A stretch of DNA of 64,000 bases from Armatimonadota bacterium (GTDB taxonomy: Bacteria > Armatimonadota > UBA5829 > DTJY01). The stretch is taken from the NCBI GenBank assembly GCA_017993055.1, contig JAGONM010000006.1, forward strand, positions 64,868 through 128,867, written 5' to 3'. The notes beneath the pieces are model-generated. The model saw only the letters and a program-made list of their open reading frames with translations. It was not told the DNA's origin and did not search any database. How positions within the stretch are numbered: the first letter of the stretch is position 1; each line of letters begins with the position of its first letter. Both the position numbers and the translations under genes were made by a program. Shown piece after piece: positions 6,681-14,671 of this stretch.

Positions 6681-6900
6681 AGGTAGGTTTCGTCTCCCTG
6701 GTCATCGGACCATGAATACGCCTCATGTCTTGTTCGCGCAAGTTGAGAGGCGAGTTGGGGACAGGGACCGGCGAGTTCCTCGCAGTACTCTCCGTTGTGC
6801 GGGAGGTATGCCTATGGTCTCAGCAGCCGCCAGTCTTCTGCCATGAATCTGTGCCGTTATGAGCCGGAAGCACAGATCTAGGAAAGGAAAGGGGACAAGT
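6681..6900 (+). other. Long structured 5' leader of the PEP-CTERM mRNA
   Basis: This 332-base gene-free interval (6569-6900) holds the palindrome, the promoter and this leader. The leader contains small hairpins (GCGAG TTC CTCGC near 6771-6783) and a strong one at 6847-6877. It also contains an open frame from ATG 6712 of about 44 codons without a good ribosome site. It was compared by eye with GEMM and cobalamin riboswitch motifs, and no convincing match was found. Confidence 0.45.
6847..6877 (+). promoter_or_regulatory. Stem-loop directly upstream of the PEP-CTERM ribosome site
   Basis: ATCTGTGC (6847-6854) and GCACAGAT (6870-6877) form an uninterrupted 8-bp stem around a 15-base loop. The stem ends just before the purine-rich stretch AGGAAAGGAAAGGGG. 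It may protect the 5' end of an abundant mRNA or present the ribosome site. Confidence 0.55.
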
Positions 6901-7560
6901 ATGAAGTACGCTCTTATCGCTTTGGCGCTTGTGGCATTGGTCGCGACCGGCGCGACTGCGGCCACAGTGTCATACGGTCCGTATGCAATCGGACTGAGCA
7001 CGACTAACTGGGCGAACAGCATCGGCCTTCAGATGTTCGATCCCTCTCTGGGCACTCTGAACAGCATCAGTTTCACCCTGAATGGTCATGTTGAGGGAAA
7101 TGCCAAGTTCGAGAGCATGGACGCGAGCCCCGCGACGGTGGGCATGGACCTCTCGGCAATGCTGACTCTCCAGCGCCCGGATCTGAGCACTCTGGTTGTA
7201 ACCATACCGCTGGCGTCAACCACCGACAATGTCACGGCATTCGACGGGACGATTGACTTCGGTGGCACGTCAGGAAAGACCTACAACAACCTGAATGCGA
7301 ACGACTCGGATTCGGCGACGACCTCGACCGCCGCCGACAAAGCCCTGTTTACCGGCCTGGGGTTAATCAACCTGCCGGTCAAGGCACAGGGCGCCTCGAC
7401 GGGTTATGGTGCCGGGAACCTGCTTCTGCAGTTCCAGACACTGGCATCCGCATCTGCCAGCGTGACCTACGATTACACGCCGATCCCTGAGCCGTCCAGC
7501 CTGCTTGCTCTTATGAGCGGCCTGGGTCTGGTCGGTTTCGCAGTCAGACGCAGACGATAA
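6901..7560 (+). CDS. PEP-CTERM surface protein, choice-of-anchor E type
   Basis: A 219-residue exported protein with a signal peptide (about 1-20, ending ATAA), a serine/threonine-rich beta-sandwich body and a classical C-terminal sorting signal: IPEPSS, a hydrophobic helix and a terminal RRRR. PEP-CTERM proteins are cut and anchored by an exosortase, which is not in this window. The body resembles the choice-of-anchor E domain. An upstream in-frame ATG at 6859 lies inside a hairpin stem and would add a basic stretch before the signal, so the ATG at 6901 behind AAAGGGG is used. The strong promoter implies high expression, as expected of a coat or matrix protein. Confidence 0.92.
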   Translation: MKYALIALALVALVATGATAATVSYGPYAIGLSTTNWANSIGLQMFDPSLGTLNSISFTLNGHVEGNAKFESMDASPATVGMDLSAMLTLQRPDLSTLVVTIPLASTTDNVTAFDGTIDFGGTSGKTYNNLNANDSDSATTSTAADKALFTGLGLINLPVKAQGASTGYGAGNLLLQFQTLASASASVTYDYTPIPEPSSLLALMSGLGLVGFAVRRRR

Positions 7561-7751: not shown

Positions 7752-9122
7752 ATGGGCATCTTCAAGGCCTGCGACATTCGGGGAGTATACGGCAACGATC
7801 TGACGGATGAGATTGTCTACAGAATTGGCCGCGCGCTGGGAACAATACTGGCAGGCAAGTCCGTCATAGTAGGTGGAGACGTTCGCAGGAGCACTCCGTC
7901 GCTCAAAGCGAAGGTTTCGCAAGGCCTTGTGGAGAGCGGTGCAGAGGTCCTTGACATCGGAATAGTCCCAACTCCAGTGTTCTATTTCGCGAGGCGGTGC
8001 CTCGGATTGGAGCCCGGAGTGATGGTGACGGCCTCCCACAACCCTGCGGAGTTCAACGGTCTCAAGATAGTCCTGGGGCCGCTTCCGATCACGGAAGATG
8101 AACTGAGAAGGGTGGGGGACCTTGCCGAACGGGGAGCGTTCCGTGAGGGTCAGGGCAGCATACGCGCTCTGGAAATCATACCTGAATATCGGCGTTTCAT
8201 ATCATCTGTGCTCCCTGCGGAGCAGCAAGCGCACCTTGTCAAGATCGTTATAGACTGTGGCAATGGCTGCAATTCGGAACTGGCCCCGGATCTGTTCCGG
8301 CGTTTCGGATTCCATATCGAAGAGCTATACTGCACTCCTGATGGCATCTTTCCTAATCGGAATCCGAACTCAGCCGACCCGGGCAACCTGGACGGCTTGA
8401 TCCGGACCGTTCGTAGTGCGAAAGCCGATGTTGGAGTTGCATTCGACGGAGACGGCGATCGCGTTGCGTTCGTAGATGACCGGGGCCGGTTCCTTCCTGG
8501 CGACAAGGCCATCGTGATAATGGCCCGCAGCCTCCTCACCGCTCACCGCGGGGAGAAAGTGGTCTACGATCTCAAGTGTTCATCCATCGTTCCCGAAGCA
8601 GTGGCCGAAGCCGGAGGTATCCCTCTCGCCGAGCGGTCCGGACACACCTTCATCAGAGCCCGAATGATCTCAGAAAATGCGCTGTTCGGCGCAGAGATCA
8701 GCGGCCACTACTTCTATCGAGACCTCGGCGGAGGAGATGACGGCATCTACTCCGCGCTTCTGATGGCCAATATGCTGGCCCGCACCGGCAGGTCGCTCTC
8801 CGACCTGGCCGATGAGGTGCCGGCTTACGAGAACACCCCGGACATCAGGGTGTCGTTCGCAGGCAACCGGGAAGATCTGATCAAGCGCATCGCGTCGGCC
8901 TTCCCCGCCGAGCGAGTATCGAAACTCGACGGCGTCAGAATCGAGTTCAATGGAGGCTGGGCGCTCGCAAGACCTTCCGTGACGGAACCGGCGATCACCT
9001 TTCGGTTTGAGGCCGAGAGTCGCAATCGCCTCGATGCAATAATAGATGAGTTCCTGAGACCGGTTCCGGAGATCGAGTCCGGCGTTCGGCACAACCTGGT
9101 TGACCGTGGCTCCGAAGAGTGA
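7752..9122 (+). CDS. Phosphomannomutase/phosphoglucomutase
   Basis: A 456-residue alpha-D-phosphohexomutase with all four domain signatures: KACDIRGVYG at the N-terminus, the phosphoserine loop TASHNP (S95), the magnesium loop DGDGDR and the sugar-binding RSGHTFIR. The C-terminal phosphate-binding loop is represented by RPSVTEP. It interconverts hexose 1- and 6-phosphates and would supply nucleotide-sugar precursors. The GAEISGHYF region fits the bifunctional ManB/AlgC group, but mannose versus glucose preference cannot be read from sequence alone. GGGAG precedes the ATG. A hairpin without T-run follows the stop. Confidence 0.93.
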   Translation: MGIFKACDIRGVYGNDLTDEIVYRIGRALGTILAGKSVIVGGDVRRSTPSLKAKVSQGLVESGAEVLDIGIVPTPVFYFARRCLGLEPGVMVTASHNPAEFNGLKIVLGPLPITEDELRRVGDLAERGAFREGQGSIRALEIIPEYRRFISSVLPAEQQAHLVKIVIDCGNGCNSELAPDLFRRFGFHIEELYCTPDGIFPNRNPNSADPGNLDGLIRTVRSAKADVGVAFDGDGDRVAFVDDRGRFLPGDKAIVIMARSLLTAHRGEKVVYDLKCSSIVPEAVAEAGGIPLAERSGHTFIRARMISENALFGAEISGHYFYRDLGGGDDGIYSALLMANMLARTGRSLSDLADEVPAYENTPDIRVSFAGNREDLIKRIASAFPAERVSKLDGVRIEFNGGWALARPSVTEPAITFRFEAESRNRLDAIIDEFLRPVPEIESGVRHNLVDRGSEE

Positions 9123-9125
9123 GGG

Positions 9126-9147
9126 TCCTTCCGCACAGTCGGAAGGA
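9126..9147 (+). terminator. Hairpin after the phosphohexomutase gene
   Basis: TCCTTCCG (9126-9133) pairs with CGGAAGGA (9140-9147) around a 6-base loop. It starts 4 bases after the stop codon and lacks a T-run, so it may be a weak terminator or an mRNA 3' end stabiliser. Confidence 0.4.
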
Positions 9148-9254
9148 ATCCGAAAGCCTCGTGCGGAAACTGTGTAAGGCGTTGGCGCCCATCATGTCGG
9201 GACGCTTGCCGGCACAAATCGCACGGGCCACGAGTCGGGGAACCGAGGTCGGAC

Positions 9255-9899
9255 GTGGATGGGGCCGAGGAACTGAGAAGCGGCTTCGTGCAGACGCGTG
9301 GGGACGTCAGGAACGTGCGTCGAGACGAAAGCGCGATAATCCAGAGGTGCAAGCAGGGCGATCTGTCCGCCTTCGACGAACTCGTGCGCTTGTACGAGAA
9401 GCAGGTGTACAGCTTCGCCTACCGCCTGACCGGCAACTATGACGATGCGAACGACATATCTTCCGAGGCCTTCGTCAAGGTCTTCAATTCCATAAACACA
9501 TTCAGAGGTGATGCCAACTTTTCAACTTGGCTCTTCCGCGTCGTGACCAATCTCTACCTGGACGAGCGGAAAAGGTCGAAAGCGCACTTGAATGTTCCCC
9601 TGGACGAGTACATTGATCTGGAAGAAAGCACGGTGACCCGCCAGATCGAAGACTCGTCGCCGGGCCCGGAGCAGCTACTGGAGCAGATGGAGCGTGCTGA
9701 AGCGCTGAATGCCCTGATCCAGCAGCTTCCTGATTATCAACGGGCCATGGTTCTCTTATATCATACCCAGGGGAGATCGTACGAGGATATCGCCGAGATA
9801 ATGGGGTTGCCTATCGGTACCGTCAAGTCGCGGCTCAATCGAGCCAGGCTTTCGCTCAGGGAGAAACTTGGGCCGGTGCTGGAACTTTTCGACCTTTAG
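9255..9899 (+). CDS. ECF-type RNA polymerase sigma factor
   Basis: A 214-residue sigma-70 family protein containing only regions 2 and 4. Region 2 includes the core-binding and -10 recognition helices (DANDISSEAFVKVFNSI, NFSTWLFRVVTNLYLDERKR). Region 4 has the HTH RSYEDIAEIMGLPIGTVKSRLNRAR. It directs RNA polymerase to a dedicated regulon and is presumably held at the membrane by the adjacent zf-HC2 protein. The start is a GTG; another in-frame GTG at 9315 would remove 20 poorly conserved residues and may be the true start. A decayed copy of its 3' end occurs at 11313-11402. Confidence 0.93.
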   Translation: MDGAEELRSGFVQTRGDVRNVRRDESAIIQRCKQGDLSAFDELVRLYEKQVYSFAYRLTGNYDDANDISSEAFVKVFNSINTFRGDANFSTWLFRVVTNLYLDERKRSKAHLNVPLDEYIDLEESTVTRQIEDSSPGPEQLLEQMERAEALNALIQQLPDYQRAMVLLYHTQGRSYEDIAEIMGLPIGTVKSRLNRARLSLREKLGPVLELFDL

Positions 9900-10026
9900 C
9901 GCCGTCGAAGCAAGTGGAAAGAAAACGTGTAGGATGGCGGCATCCGCCGTCAACAGGTCCGAATGCAGCTGCGTTTTTCCTGCCACGGTTTCAACGGCGA
10001 TGCGTCAGGTGGGAAGAGGGATTTCC

Positions 10027-11124
10027 ATGAAGTGCGAGAGAGCCAGAGAGTTGTTTTCGGAGTATCTGGAGGGCAGCATAGACTACGCTCTGACTGCCAC
10101 CGTACGAACTCATGTGGACCAGTGCGATGTGTGCAGAGAGGATCTGCGCGCCTTTCAGTGCACCTGGGACGCAATGTCCGCCCTGCCGGAAATCGAACCC
10201 CCCGCGAGTTTCCGCCACGATGTAGTCATGAGAGCTGCCCGACTTCAGCACGAGCGGAGGTCGGAGCAGCGGCGCGGCCTGTTCGGGCTTGACTGGAACT
10301 ATTCAATCGGCAGGCTCCTTCCCACCAGGGCCTTGGCGGTTGCGGCTGCGGGTGCCGTTCTGGCAGCCGTGCTGATAAACCTGGTCCCGCGCATCGCCCC
10401 GCTTCTTGACGAGAACAACCGCAGGATATCCGGGTTCTCGCCGCTCCTCCCTGCTGGGGCTGAGCAGAGATACGCGAAGGAAGAATGGCAGTCCCGGAAG
10501 ATTCTCAGCAACGCGCTGTGGGCTTCCATAAGGTCTACGGATCTGGGCGAAGGCAGAAGTTACTACGAACTGGTTCTGGAGATCAACAACAAAGCTCTTG
10601 TGCGGCGGGTCACAAACCGGATAGCGGCTGATGTCTACGTTCTTCCTCCCGGCAGGTTCGGTGTGGCGTCTGCCGATCAGCGCGCCCCGGTCTGGTCGGG
10701 CAATGTGCTGGGCAGCAGTCCGGTTCACGTTGCGGTCCCGGGCATCAGCAACTCCAAGGGCGATCCGATGCCGGTAACTCTGCTGATCAACTATCGGTTC
10801 GAGAAGATCAGCTTTGCGAAGATAGTGTTCGTCCCGACCGACAGTTCGCCTGCTGGATGCACTGACCCCTTCGTGAGTTTCACTGGGCCGGTGATCAGAC
10901 CGATGCAGAACGATCTCTATGCCGTGCTCCAGGGCGTATCGCAGAGCAAGGGTCTGGCGATCATCGCCAACGGGACTCTGCATAAACAGCCGACCCCCAT
11001 GAGTATCATCTCTGGGACCACTGAGGATGTTCTGCGCACGATGCTGACCCCGCTCGACCTGACGTGGGCGGTGATAGACGGTGCGGTGTATGTTGACAAG
11101 GAGTTTCGAGTCGAGGCGGAGTAG
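10027..11124 (+). CDS. Membrane anti-sigma-like protein with zf-HC2 and STN-like ectodomain, copy 1
   Basis: The 365-residue product has a zf-HC2 anti-sigma zinc motif at the N-terminus (C3, H29, C33, C36, spacing H-x3-C-x2-C), one membrane helix at about residues 97-118 and a large external region. Residues ~300-360 (LYAVLQGVSQSKGLAII, then EDVLRTMLTPLDLTWAVIDGAVYV) follow the pattern of the STN/FecR C-terminal domain. It probably binds the upstream sigma factor and releases it on an external signal. The frame is open from 9868, but the ATG at 10027 behind GGGAAGAGGGA gives the paralogue-conserved N-terminus. A near-duplicate follows at 11514. Confidence 0.82.
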   Translation: MKCERARELFSEYLEGSIDYALTATVRTHVDQCDVCREDLRAFQCTWDAMSALPEIEPPASFRHDVVMRAARLQHERRSEQRRGLFGLDWNYSIGRLLPTRALAVAAAGAVLAAVLINLVPRIAPLLDENNRRISGFSPLLPAGAEQRYAKEEWQSRKILSNALWASIRSTDLGEGRSYYELVLEINNKALVRRVTNRIAADVYVLPPGRFGVASADQRAPVWSGNVLGSSPVHVAVPGISNSKGDPMPVTLLINYRFEKISFAKIVFVPTDSSPAGCTDPFVSFTGPVIRPMQNDLYAVLQGVSQSKGLAIIANGTLHKQPTPMSIISGTTEDVLRTMLTPLDLTWAVIDGAVYVDKEFRVEAE

Positions 11125-11158
11125 CCGCCAGATCGGGCGAATTGCGTGTGATATTAGA

Positions 11159-11184
11159 GAGCCCCGGAATCGCTTCCGGGGCTC
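11159..11184 (+). terminator. Terminator-like hairpin after anti-sigma copy 1
   Basis: GAGCCCCGGAA (11159-11169) pairs with TTCCGGGGCTC (11174-11184) around TCGC, an 11-bp GC-rich stem. The tail has only scattered T. A related hairpin follows copy 2 at 12644-12667, consistent with duplication of the whole unit. Confidence 0.6.
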
Positions 11185-11245
11185 CTGCATTTGTGCCCCA
11201 CCGAGCCTTGCGCGTGCCCTAAGCTCGCCCGCATGACAGCAGCTT

Positions 11246-11300
11246 CAGAACGCTTGTTCGAGGATGGCAGATGGACTTGCACAAGGTACTCGGGCCCGGA
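11246..11300 (+). pseudogene. Degenerate 5' fragment of the DinG-type helicase gene
   Basis: The segment from 11246 (CAGAACGCTTGTTCGAGGAT) closely matches 12712 onward, which covers the helicase ribosome site, its start codon (the ATG at 11271) and the first codons. The similarity fades by about 11300 and the frame is lost. The promoter -10 box present before the real gene is absent here. This is the left half of a duplication junction. Confidence 0.7.
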
Positions 11301-11312
11301 GTACTGACTGCG

Positions 11313-11402
11313 ATCGGTTGCAGGTATGGGCCTCAACAGATCCAGTGCATGATAACGATTGAGACCGGTGCGGGAACTTCTCGACCTCCAGTGCCGTCGA
11401 AC
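11313..11402 (+). pseudogene. Degenerate 3' fragment of the ECF sigma factor gene
   Basis: Blocks such as ATCGGT, CTCAA..GA.CCAG, CCGGTGC.GGAACTT.TCGACCT and GCCGTCGAA match the last ~90 bases of the sigma gene and its 3' flank (about 9812-9910) in order, with gaps and substitutions. No open frame remains. It sits directly upstream of anti-sigma copy 2, exactly as the real sigma gene sits upstream of copy 1 (offset about 1.49 kb). Confidence 0.7.
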
Positions 11403-11513
11403 ACAATGTAGACTGTCTGGAGTTCACCGCATGTTCGGTTGCAGGGATTCAGATGTGTGCGCAAGTGCCGCGCTTGCGATGGCGCTATCCTGGTAGTAGG
11501 GAGTGGGCTTTCC

Positions 11514-12608
11514 ATGAAGTGTGAAAGAGCAAGAGAGTTGTTCTCGGAGTATGTGGAAGGCAGTATAGACTACGCTTTGACCGTCACCGTGCGATCACAC
11601 ATCGATCAGTGCCGTGCCTGCAGGACGGATCTCAAGTCGTTTCTGAAAACCTGGGATGCGATCGGTGCACTGCCCGAGGTCCAGCCTCCCTCGAGTTTCC
11701 GCCACGACGTGGTGATGAGGGCGGCCCGACTTCAGCATGAGCAGAGGAAGCCTGCTGGATACGGCTTCGCCGGTGCTGCCAGGGACTTGCTGTTCCGTCG
11801 CCTCATCCCGGTCCGCGCAGTCGCGATTGCGGCTGCGGGGGCGGTACTGGCCGTCATGGCGCTAAGCATCTCGAGTGTCGTGGACGGGAAGAATCCGTTG
11901 CTGAGCGTCTTGGGCCAGCTGAACTTCGCTTGGACCGAACGGGTCAATGACAAGGAAGAGTGGCTGTCTCGAAGGACTTGGGGCAACAAACTGTGGGTCT
12001 CGCTCGAAGCCAGGGAGTTCGGCCCGGGTAGCGTCTACTACGAAGTGGTGCTTGAGATCAACAACAAGGCGTTGCCCGAGATCGAGAACAAGGTTGATAG
12101 GATTGCCTGTACGGTCTACGTGCTTCCGCCCGATAACTTCGGATTGGATGACGGTGATCTTCGCGGGGCGGTCTGGGCCGGCGATGTTCGCGGGCAGAGC
12201 CCGGTGCATATCGCAGTCCCGGGCATCAGCAGTTCCAGCGTTTATCCTGCGCCCGTTACTCTGCTGATTCGCTACCGGGTGAAGAATAGGCCGCTTTCGA
12301 AACTCGTCTTCATACCGACGGAAAACTCGAACGGGAGATCGAGCGATGCGATGAGCCTGTATACCGGTTCGGCGGCGAAATCTGCTGCCGAGAACCTGTA
12401 TTCCAGTCTTCAGTCCCTGTCGCAGAGGAATGGCGTGGCTGTCATAGCGAACGTTCTTCATGTCGTACCGCCGACCCCGGCGAATCTGAGGCCCGGCAAG
12501 ACTGAGAATGTCATGCGGGTGCTCTGTCCGGATCGCGGTCGCCTAGCTTGGGCGTTCATGGACGGAGCCGTCTATGTGGATCGGCAGTTTGGCAATACAG
12601 GAGACTAA
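11514..12608 (+). CDS. Membrane anti-sigma-like protein with zf-HC2 and STN-like ectodomain, copy 2
   Basis: A 364-residue paralogue of the gene at 10027, similar over its whole length. It keeps the zinc motif (C3, H29, C33, C36), the single membrane helix (~100-118), the EINNKAL and VPGIS blocks of the external domain and the STN-like end (LYSSLQSLSQRNGVAVIANVL, FMDGAVYVDRQF). It no longer has its own sigma gene, only the remnant upstream. It may compete for the single remaining sigma factor, respond to a different signal, or act without a sigma partner. The start is set by homology with copy 1 and the shared TTTCCATGAAGTG context. Confidence 0.8.
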   Translation: MKCERARELFSEYVEGSIDYALTVTVRSHIDQCRACRTDLKSFLKTWDAIGALPEVQPPSSFRHDVVMRAARLQHEQRKPAGYGFAGAARDLLFRRLIPVRAVAIAAAGAVLAVMALSISSVVDGKNPLLSVLGQLNFAWTERVNDKEEWLSRRTWGNKLWVSLEAREFGPGSVYYEVVLEINNKALPEIENKVDRIACTVYVLPPDNFGLDDGDLRGAVWAGDVRGQSPVHIAVPGISSSSVYPAPVTLLIRYRVKNRPLSKLVFIPTENSNGRSSDAMSLYTGSAAKSAAENLYSSLQSLSQRNGVAVIANVLHVVPPTPANLRPGKTENVMRVLCPDRGRLAWAFMDGAVYVDRQFGNTGD

Positions 12609-12643
12609 CCCGGGTCGCAGACCCGAATACGTCTGGATGGCAG

Positions 12644-12667
12644 GCCCCGGAGCGCTCGCTTCGGGGC
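12644..12667 (+). terminator. Terminator-like hairpin after anti-sigma copy 2
   Basis: GCCCCG (12644-12649) pairs with CGGGGC (12662-12667), extended inwards by a G-T pair and AGC/GCT around the loop GCTC. The tail TTATTCCTT is T-rich. It is the counterpart of the hairpin at 11159-11184 and separates the gene from the helicase promoter. Confidence 0.6.
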
Positions 12668-12674
12668 TTATTCC

Positions 12675-12703
12675 TTGCGCCGGATCGCCTGTTTCCGTAT
12701 AAT
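12675..12703 (+). promoter_or_regulatory. Promoter of the helicase gene
   Basis: TTGCGC (12675-12680) and a perfect TATAAT (12698-12703) are spaced 17 bases. The same TTGCGC-17-TATAAT combination occurs on the minus strand before the DUF2007 gene at 40763. The leader to the ATG at 12737 is about 27 bases and includes GAGGA. Confidence 0.65.
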
Positions 12704-12736
12704 GATGCGGTCAGAACACTTGTTCGAGGATGTCGG

Positions 12737-14671
12737 ATGGACCTGGAACGGGCGCTTGGCCCTCGCGGACAGATTGCCGAACAGATGCCGGGGTACGAGT
12801 TCCGGCCGCAGCAGATCGAGGTGGCGCTCGCTATAGCCCGCGCCCTCGGCTCGAAGCGCCACTGCCTTGCCGAGGCTGGAACCGGCGTCGGCAAGAGCAT
12901 GGCCTATCTGCTCCCTGCTATCGAGTATGCCCTCTCCGGCAAAAAAGTGATCGTCTCGACGCATACGATCTATCTTCAGAGCCAGCTCCTCACCAAGGAC
13001 ATTCCGTTTCTGCACAGCGTCTTCCCCGACCGCAAGTTCAGGGCTGTCGTCGCAAAGGGCAGGGGCAACTACCTCTGTCTGAACAACCTCGACGCCGAAC
13101 TGGGCCAGCTATCTCTGATCGGCGACCCGAATCTGCCGAAGCTTCAGAAGTGGGCGAACGAGACCGATACCGGCGATGTGGCCGAACTCGATTTCAGCTT
13201 CTCGGACTGGTCGGACATCTGCTCGAACCAGGATACCTGCCACAACCAGCAGTGCCGCTTCGTCGGCAAGTGCTTCTACTACAGGATGCGACGTGAGGCG
13301 CAGGACGCCGACATCGTCGTTACCAACCACTCGCTGTTCTTCTCCGACCTGGCCATTCGGATCTCGGACCCGAACTCCGGCGTACTGCCGAGCTACGATG
13401 CCGTGATCTTCGACGAGGCACACCACCTGGAGGATGTCGCGACGAAGGCGTTCGGCATCGAGTGTGGGAGTTTCCGGGTTCCCAGCCTGCTCAGGAGGAT
13501 TCGTCGCGTAAAGGGGATCGGCCTTGATGCCGGCAGGATTCAGATGCTCGACGAGATGAACTCCGCGCTATTCGAGACATTCGCCCACAGCCCCAAGCAG
13601 GAGTTCTTTCTGCACGAGGTCTGCCGGGGAAATACCGCGTCGCAGGTCGAAGAGACCGTGAAGATGATGTGCGCGATGCTCGACGGACTCAACCGTGAGT
13701 TATCGGAGCAGGACACGACGGGCAAGCCCGAACTCGAGGACCGGCTCTCAGGCCTGCGCCGGATGGCGATGCGGCTCAAGGAGGAGATGACCACGCTCTT
13801 CTTCGGCACCGAGGCAGGGTACTTCAAATGGGGCGAGCGGACGAACGGCAAGACCCAGCTCTGCTTCCTGCGATACTCCCCGCTATCGGTCGCAGACATC
13901 CTGCGCCGGACCCTGTGGAAGGAGATTGACAGCGTCGTCCTGACTTCGGCGACGCTCACCAACTCCGGGACGTTCAGCTACCTCCGCGGACGTCTCGGTG
14001 TGCCTGAGTGCGTCGAGGCCGCACAGGACTCGCCGTTCGACTTCCAGACGCAGTGCATGCTCTACGTCCCGAGGCACCTGGACTTCCCTTCCGAGAACTC
14101 GTACTATACCGAGGCTGTCGCCGGTGAGATCGAGGAACTCGTGAAGGCGTCCGGCGGGCGGGCGTTCCTGCTCTTCACCTCGTACCGCATGATGAATGCC
14201 GTCTACGACGTGCTCTTCGGTCGCCTGCCGTATACGACGATGAAACAGGGTGACATGTCCAACGAGGCGCTGGTTCAGGCGTTCCTGGAGCAGGAACAGG
14301 CCTGTCTGTTTGGCGTACACAGCTTCTGGGAGGGCGTGGACATCCGGGGTGAGGCGCTCAGCATCGTCGTGATAGACAAGCTCCCGTTCGCCGTGCCGGA
14401 TAGCCCGGTAAACAAGGCGCGCACCGACGCTATCACCGCATCAGGGGGAGATTGGTTCCGCGACTACTCGATGCCTCAGGCGCAGATCCGGTTGAAGCAG
14501 GGCTTCGGACGCCTCATCCGCACGAAGACCGACCGCGGTGTCGTCGCGATCCTCGACTCGCGCTTGGTGAAGAAGCCTTACGGCCGGGAGTTCATCCGCT
14601 TCCTCCCCCAGTGCCCGGTGACGGTGCGGATAGAGGATGTGCAGAGGTTCTTCGGCGTCCGACAGGTCTGA
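12737..14671 (+). CDS. dinG: DinG/XPD-family ATP-dependent DNA helicase
   Basis: A 644-residue superfamily 2 helicase. The Walker A box is AEAGTGVGKS near residue 50, and the DEAH box is FDEAHHLEDVA near residue 227. Between them lies a cysteine-rich stretch (GNYLC, DICSNQDTC, QQC, GKC) that fits the 4Fe-4S cluster of XPD/DinG enzymes. C-terminal motifs include SFWEGVDIRGEAL and RLKQGFGRLIRT. These enzymes unwind DNA 5'-3' and resolve R-loops and G-quadruplexes. The frame is open into the previous gene, but the ATG at 12737 behind GAGGA and a good promoter is the likely start. Its first codons are duplicated as a remnant at 11246. Confidence 0.9.
   Translation: MDLERALGPRGQIAEQMPGYEFRPQQIEVALAIARALGSKRHCLAEAGTGVGKSMAYLLPAIEYALSGKKVIVSTHTIYLQSQLLTKDIPFLHSVFPDRKFRAVVAKGRGNYLCLNNLDAELGQLSLIGDPNLPKLQKWANETDTGDVAELDFSFSDWSDICSNQDTCHNQQCRFVGKCFYYRMRREAQDADIVVTNHSLFFSDLAIRISDPNSGVLPSYDAVIFDEAHHLEDVATKAFGIECGSFRVPSLLRRIRRVKGIGLDAGRIQMLDEMNSALFETFAHSPKQEFFLHEVCRGNTASQVEETVKMMCAMLDGLNRELSEQDTTGKPELEDRLSGLRRMAMRLKEEMTTLFFGTEAGYFKWGERTNGKTQLCFLRYSPLSVADILRRTLWKEIDSVVLTSATLTNSGTFSYLRGRLGVPECVEAAQDSPFDFQTQCMLYVPRHLDFPSENSYYTEAVAGEIEELVKASGGRAFLLFTSYRMMNAVYDVLFGRLPYTTMKQGDMSNEALVQAFLEQEQACLFGVHSFWEGVDIRGEALSIVVIDKLPFAVPDSPVNKARTDAITASGGDWFRDYSMPQAQIRLKQGFGRLIRTKTDRGVVAILDSRLVKKPYGREFIRFLPQCPVTVRIEDVQRFFGVRQV

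Follow-up and report, generated by a model that had tools for sequence, protein, structure and literature searches.

A lineage-specific tandem duplication beside an ECF sigma gene in Armatimonadota, and the regulatory DNA that appears to be kept at its junction

Two anti-sigma genes stand one after the other in the genome of an Armatimonadota bacterium (assembly GCA_017993055.1), between the gene for an ECF sigma factor and that for a DNA repair helicase, and the DNA that separates them carries pieces of both neighbours. The question raised by this arrangement is whether the intervening DNA is simply the worn seam of an old duplication, or whether parts of it have been kept for what they do. 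The window analysed here is a stretch of 64,000 nucleotides of contig JAGONM010000006.1 (positions 64,868 to 128,867, forward strand), and coordinates are those of the window unless stated otherwise. The genes concerned are the following.

9255-9899, + strand: ECF sigma factor, 214 aa, nearest to SigW/RpoE (Pfam Sigma70_r2 and Sigma70_r4_2; SigW 5wuq, E 9.9e-32)
10027-11124, + strand: anti-sigma copy A, 365 aa (Pfam zf-HC2, E 3.2e-6)
11514-12608, + strand: anti-sigma copy B, 364 aa (Pfam zf-HC2, E 9.4e-7)
12737-14671, + strand: YoaA/DinG-type DNA repair helicase, 644 aa (NCBIfam YoaA NF053712, E 3.5e-180, DinG models next)

The sigma factor consists of regions 2 and 4 only, joined by a short linker (r2 at 43-109 and r4_2 at 149-201, over the Pfam cut-off), and exceeds the cut-off of the superfamily model TIGR02937, with the NCBIfam SigW models scoring best but below their cut-off. 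The helicase reaches 600.8 bits against the YoaA model NF053712 (cut-off 680), and Helicase_C_2 and DEAD_2 are over their Pfam cut-offs. Copy A is laid out as a zinc-type anti-sigma domain, one transmembrane stretch, an outer beta domain and a C-terminal N0/STN-like domain. The HxxxCxxC zinc motif of the N-terminal domain (C3, H29, C33 and C36, the ligands expected in an anti-sigma factor of this type) is invariant in A, B and their relatives, zf-HC2 is over its cut-off in both copies, and a profile comparison matches the domain to RsiW of B. subtilis (5wuq_C, E 8.7e-5). The C-terminal domain shows a weak likeness to InvG N0, a lead only (E 0.49), and a FecR domain was found in neither copy with Pfam or NCBIfam. 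Structure models of the copies are of low confidence (mean pLDDT 64 for A and 57 for the other), and comparison of the copy A model, at that pLDDT, with PDB folds returned nothing at E <= 0.001, the best matches being meaningless.

An earlier sequence-only reading of the gap between the copies, 11125-11513, had described a helicase 5' fragment starting at 11246 and followed by a sigma 3' fragment, left behind by a tandem duplication of about 1.5 kb that ran from the sigma 3' end to the helicase 5' end. Self-blastn, in which genes A and B also match each other, likewise shows that the gap joins a duplicate of the helicase 5' end to one of the sigma 3' end. The helicase-side core, 11246-11280, is identical to 12712-12746 at 31 of 35 positions (89%, E 2.7e-7), and the sigma-side core, 11366-11402, to 9874-9910 at 32 of 37 (86%, E 9.5e-7). 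In local alignment the helicase side scores 37.8 and the sigma side 28.8, against maxima of 19.7 and 17.8 among 1000 dinucleotide-preserving shuffles, which confirms the earlier observation. A breakpoint scan places the joint best at about 11342, where helicase position 12817 meets sigma position 9857, with near-equal scores across 11340-11359, and the repeat unit is about 1.49 kb. The pieces of the junction, and the hairpins that follow the two copies, are these.

11159-11184, + strand: hairpin after copy A, terminator-like (-24.2 kcal/mol, z -3.9)
11246-11342, + strand: retained helicase 5' fragment with putative operator, ribosome site, start codon at 11271 and about 70 bp of degraded coding DNA (31/35 over 11246-11280, and the breakpoint scan)
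11343-11402, + strand: retained sigma 3' fragment, secure from 11359 (self-blastn, shuffles and breakpoint scan)
12642-12669, + strand: hairpin after copy B (-25.5 kcal/mol, z -2.6)

Some details of the first description have to be redrawn. The sigma fragment had been given as 11313-11402, of which 11366-11402 stands (32/37) and 11313-11358 does not: segment 11286-11360 scores against sigma positions 9780-9873 as shuffled sequence does (fraction of shuffles at or above the observed score, 0.35), whereas against the helicase that fraction is 0.004, and weak helicase-like similarity continues to 11345. What was copied whole is the anti-sigma gene alone, the sigma gene contributing only about its last 43 bp, and the description as a duplication of a sigma/anti-sigma unit is thus withdrawn. 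The hairpins that had been noticed after both copies are present and strong; since neither has a clear U-tract and a terminator scan called neither, the term terminator expresses a likeness only. An Rfam scan of 9000-13000 gave no match.

The direction of the change can be read from the comparison set, which comprised four other genomes of the same family (G001-G004), the window's genome making five. In all four the order is sigma, anti-sigma, helicase, with one full-length anti-sigma gene, which is the single-copy ancestral state that the sequence-only reading had proposed to look for. A and B group as sisters, with support of 100/99, in a phylogeny of 17 proteins. With just 51% identity between the copies, B might be thought to have come from another lineage by horizontal transfer or recombination, rather than by local duplication; the tree speaks against this, the genome has no other close copy, and the order of the flanking fragments is exactly that of a local tandem duplication, all of which make a foreign origin extremely improbable. 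A lineage-specific tandem duplication of about 1.49 kb is therefore established. It was found in one genome only, and for that reason the junction is not open to footprinting among relatives.

The copies are old. Their proteins are 51% identical, with dN 0.41, dS 1.30 (a value of about 1.3 being near saturation) and dN/dS 0.31 overall, so that the divergence has been mainly under purifying selection. Constraint is unevenly spread: residues 1-78, which form the anti-sigma domain, are 78% identical (dN/dS 0.12, dS about 1.2), the linker/transmembrane segment has dN/dS 0.83, the outer domain is 46% identical with dN/dS 0.29, and the C-terminal domain is 40% identical with dN/dS 0.39. Since both copies keep the zinc anti-sigma domain, the same sigma factor is probably held by both, and one sigma probably now answers to two anti-sigmas; given the divergence of the outer domains, the module is probably one sigma under two sensors. 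The branch to B is about twice that to A in the tree (0.65 vs 0.32), and relative-rate comparisons with three of four outgroups point the same way, with unique changes numbering 16 in A vs 34 in B, 18 vs 31, and 18 vs 33; measured against the most distant outgroup, A and B do not differ (20 vs 16). The longer branch of B could reflect partly relaxed constraint.

The two best-kept stretches of the gap hold regulatory motifs, a point that the sequence-only reading missed. The motif on the sigma side is of ECF type and occurs twice.

9881-9906, + strand: ECF-type promoter A, GGAACTT-N16-GTC, proposed for copy A and spanning the stop codon of sigma (the same in all 22 class orthologues)
11373-11398, + strand: ECF-type promoter B, GGAACTT-N16-GTC, before copy B (all 10 invariant positions retained, sigma frame lost)

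Throughout the class, in 22 of 22 sigma orthologues, the gene ends in GGAACTT, followed after exactly 16 bases by GTC just past the stop codon, so that the promoter-like pattern has the same place and spacing in every one. GGAACTT is the -35 box bound by RpoE of E. coli, and AAC and CGT boxes are typical of ECF promoters (PMC8103513). The -35 element overlaps the Glu-Leu-Phe codons at the end of the sigma protein, and its conservation in sigma genes could in part be coding; that of GTC is not, because it follows the stop codon. At the junction, promoter B keeps the spacing and all ten positions, while the adjoining coding-linked T, present in 22 of 22 genes, has changed there.

Positive autoregulation of ECF sigma genes through their own promoter motif is common, though not required. 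Here, GGAAC-N17-19-GTC was found within 350 bp upstream of the sigma gene in none of the five family genomes, and in 2 of 21 cases in the class. With no motif upstream of its own gene, the sigma factor therefore seems to drive its anti-sigma and not itself, which would constitute negative feedback. A scan of the junction for sigma-70 promoters gave nothing, and a wider regulon scan of the window's genome with GGAACTT-N14-16-CGTC found 21 sites vs 14 for the reversed-pattern control, barely above it. A separate observation, made outside the window, is an intergenic GGAACTTTT-N14-GTC site (L116 1501-1675; G000:C1:28560 onward) followed about 130 nt on by a strong GC hairpin and T-run (fold z -4.4), with no evident gene between; no Rfam family was over threshold in that region, and the site with its hairpin is a candidate for a sigma-dependent small RNA.

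The helicase side of the junction carries motifs of another kind, which can be set beside those of the intact helicase gene.

11208-11237, + strand: decayed copy of the helicase promoter, TTGCGC-18-CATGAC, the parent being TTGCGC-17-TATAAT (direct reading)
11248-11259, + strand: perfect LexA-type box GAACGCTTGTTC in the junction (the same kind of box precedes the helicase in five family genomes)
12675-12703, + strand: intact sigma-70-like helicase promoter, TTGCGC-17-TATAAT (direct reading; similar layout in relatives)
12714-12725, + strand: LexA-type box GAACACTTGTTC of the intact helicase (motif match, relatives)

In Gram-positive bacteria the LexA motif is GAAC-N4-GTTC (PMC3323433). Each of the five family genomes has a perfect match 23-28 bp before the helicase start codon, the central tetranucleotide taking four different forms among them; four of five Y-family polymerase loci also carry the motif, and lexA is present in all five genomes. 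Genome-wide counts of GAAC-N4-GTTCG were not above a reversed control in four relatives, so that it is the location of the boxes and the genes they precede, rather than their frequency, that argues for an operator, and on these grounds the box is a probable LexA operator. No perfect box was found in the 350 bp upstream of lexA or recA; a one-mismatch version, GAACATCCTTTC, lies about 130 bp upstream of lexA and is common to two genera (L037, L038). In many members of another family (f3; L182-L193) the helicase has CGAAY-N4-GTTCG between TTGAC -35 and -10 boxes; in the window's family the operator-like box follows the -10 box, the motif being the same and its position having moved. Three genes of the window's genome encode a LexA DNA-binding domain (contigs C1, C6 and C23), one of them on the window's contig.

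How much of this would survive if nothing had held it in place? Four-fold degenerate sites agree at 44% between A and B, and neutral DNA in the gap is therefore expected to be about 44% identical to its parents. Simulated neutral descendants (400 trials each) never reached 31/35 or 32/37 at 44, 50 or 55% identity, and did so in 0.5-3% of trials at 60-65%. Outside the two cores, gapped identity is 67% vs 63% for shuffled sequence. With motif positions defined from the relatives only (eight in the LexA box, seven in the -35 and three in the -10 element), 18 of 18 are kept in the gap, compared with 196 of 282 positions elsewhere (Fisher p = 0.0018). Gapped alignment inflates the background, which makes the test conservative in that respect; it is not fully blind, because the cores had been noticed before testing, though the motif positions came from relatives. 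That the gap is a plain neutral fossil, in which both fragments have been decaying equally and the motifs have survived by chance, would agree with the near-chance identity outside the cores, with the weak helicase similarity that extends to 11345 and with the decay of the helicase -10 box; it is nevertheless quite unlikely, such well-kept cores being out of reach for neutral descendants at four-fold-site identity and every motif position having been retained. The earlier terms fossil and decayed thus suit the gap outside the cores and not the cores themselves, and 'pared down to regulatory DNA' is a better description than 'decayed'. What seems to have preserved the two fragments is a promoter in the one from sigma and possibly an operator in the one from the helicase.

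A different way of keeping the cores alike, following the same local duplication, would be short gene conversion with the parents 1.5 kb away, with no part for selection. The conserved run 11246-11280 does extend past the LexA box to cover the ribosome site and start codon, a region with little similarity among relatives; however, conversion would have no reason to single out, twice, motifs that were defined independently from relatives, and the anti-sigma copies show synonymous divergence even in the domain that they have kept best, which leaves conversion quite unlikely.

The explanation that we consider likely is that the duplication brought with it a sigma-dependent promoter lying within the sigma tail, that this promoter was then selected for upstream of B, and that one sigma factor came to be restrained by two sensors. 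On the motifs and rates described above, events would have run as follows. A tandem duplication of about 1.49 kb copied the anti-sigma gene together with the sigma tail before it and the helicase head after it. The anti-sigma promoter would lie inside that tail, its -35 box (GGAACTT) falling within the final codons of sigma and its -10 box (GTC) directly after the stop codon, and because it was embedded there copy B would have been born with a sigma-responsive promoter of its own, expressible at once. Selection would have kept promoter B while the coding DNA around it was randomised, and in the protein the presumed sigma-binding domain was kept (78%, dN/dS 0.12) as the outer sensor diverged (40-46%). 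Each anti-sigma would be raised when sigma is free, a negative feedback, although part of the transcription of both copies may instead come from read-through that starts at sigma.

Selection for promoter B can be true together with a second reading, possible though doubtful, in which SOS control has been preserved at the junction as well, the LexA box and a weak sigma-70 promoter giving damage-dependent transcription of B or of a leader frame at 11271-11411. The perfection of the junction box would fit this, as would its counterparts before the helicase in all five family genomes, the similar boxes between -35 and -10 in many class members, the boxes at four of the family's five Y-family polymerase loci, the presence of lexA in all five genomes, and the ribosome site and start codon beside the junction box, which are largely kept (17/21); set against these are the degraded -10 box, a distance of about 114 bp from the box to the ECF promoter of B, the fact that B has its own promoter, the restriction to one genome, and lexA and recA promoters without a perfect box. 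It would be a less likely step further for the stress sigma to be wired to the SOS response, with damage raising the differently sensing second anti-sigma, B, and so damping sigma. The open frame 11271-11411, of 46 codons, starts at the retained helicase start codon, by the kept ribosome site and LexA-type box, and is either a leader peptide or due to chance.

Among known systems the module is closest to SigW-RsiW and RpoE-RseA (class I, ASDI), with which it shares a sigma factor nearest to SigW and RpoE, an anti-sigma domain that matches the RsiW profile, a membrane anti-sigma gene directly after sigma, and the -35 GGAACTT of RpoE. It differs in having two adjacent anti-sigma genes, a C-terminal N0/STN-like domain, and a promoter across the sigma stop codon and not before sigma. 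Modules of the FecI-FecR type have an STN-like C-terminal domain on the anti-sigma factor, which the weak N0/STN (InvG) likeness recalls, whereas here the anti-sigma domain is of zinc type, FecR is without a match in Pfam or NCBIfam, and no TonB receptor gene is among the neighbours read. The Gram-positive LexA regulon (PMC3323433) offers the same box before helicase and Y-family polymerase genes along with lexA; here, the host belongs to the Armatimonadota, lexA and recA are without a perfect box, and one box is stranded upstream of an anti-sigma gene.

Tandem duplication of a gene together with its own promoter is a general mode of gene birth, and here too the regulatory region was copied with the gene; the difference is that the promoter sits inside the neighbouring gene, and a truncated piece of that neighbour would for this reason have been kept as promoter DNA. 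A search of the open literature found no precedent for duplicated anti-sigma genes or for an anti-sigma promoter inside a sigma gene, which does not prove their absence, and no work on ECF sigma control in Armatimonadota. If the promoter is indeed contained in the 3' end of sigma, one tandem duplication would be enough to place a second anti-sigma under the control of the sigma that it restrains, and a feedback circuit could thereby gain a second sensor in one step. The supposed fossil can be viewed as a natural footprint, most of the gap having been erased over a span of about 1.3 synonymous changes per site and the likely working parts spared, and the stop-codon-straddling promoter, invariant in 22 class members, yields a direct prediction for start-site mapping. 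Elsewhere in the window, 6859-7560 encodes a predicted secreted protein that ends in IPEPSSLLALMSGLGLVGFAVRRRR, resembling a PEP-CTERM sorting tail.
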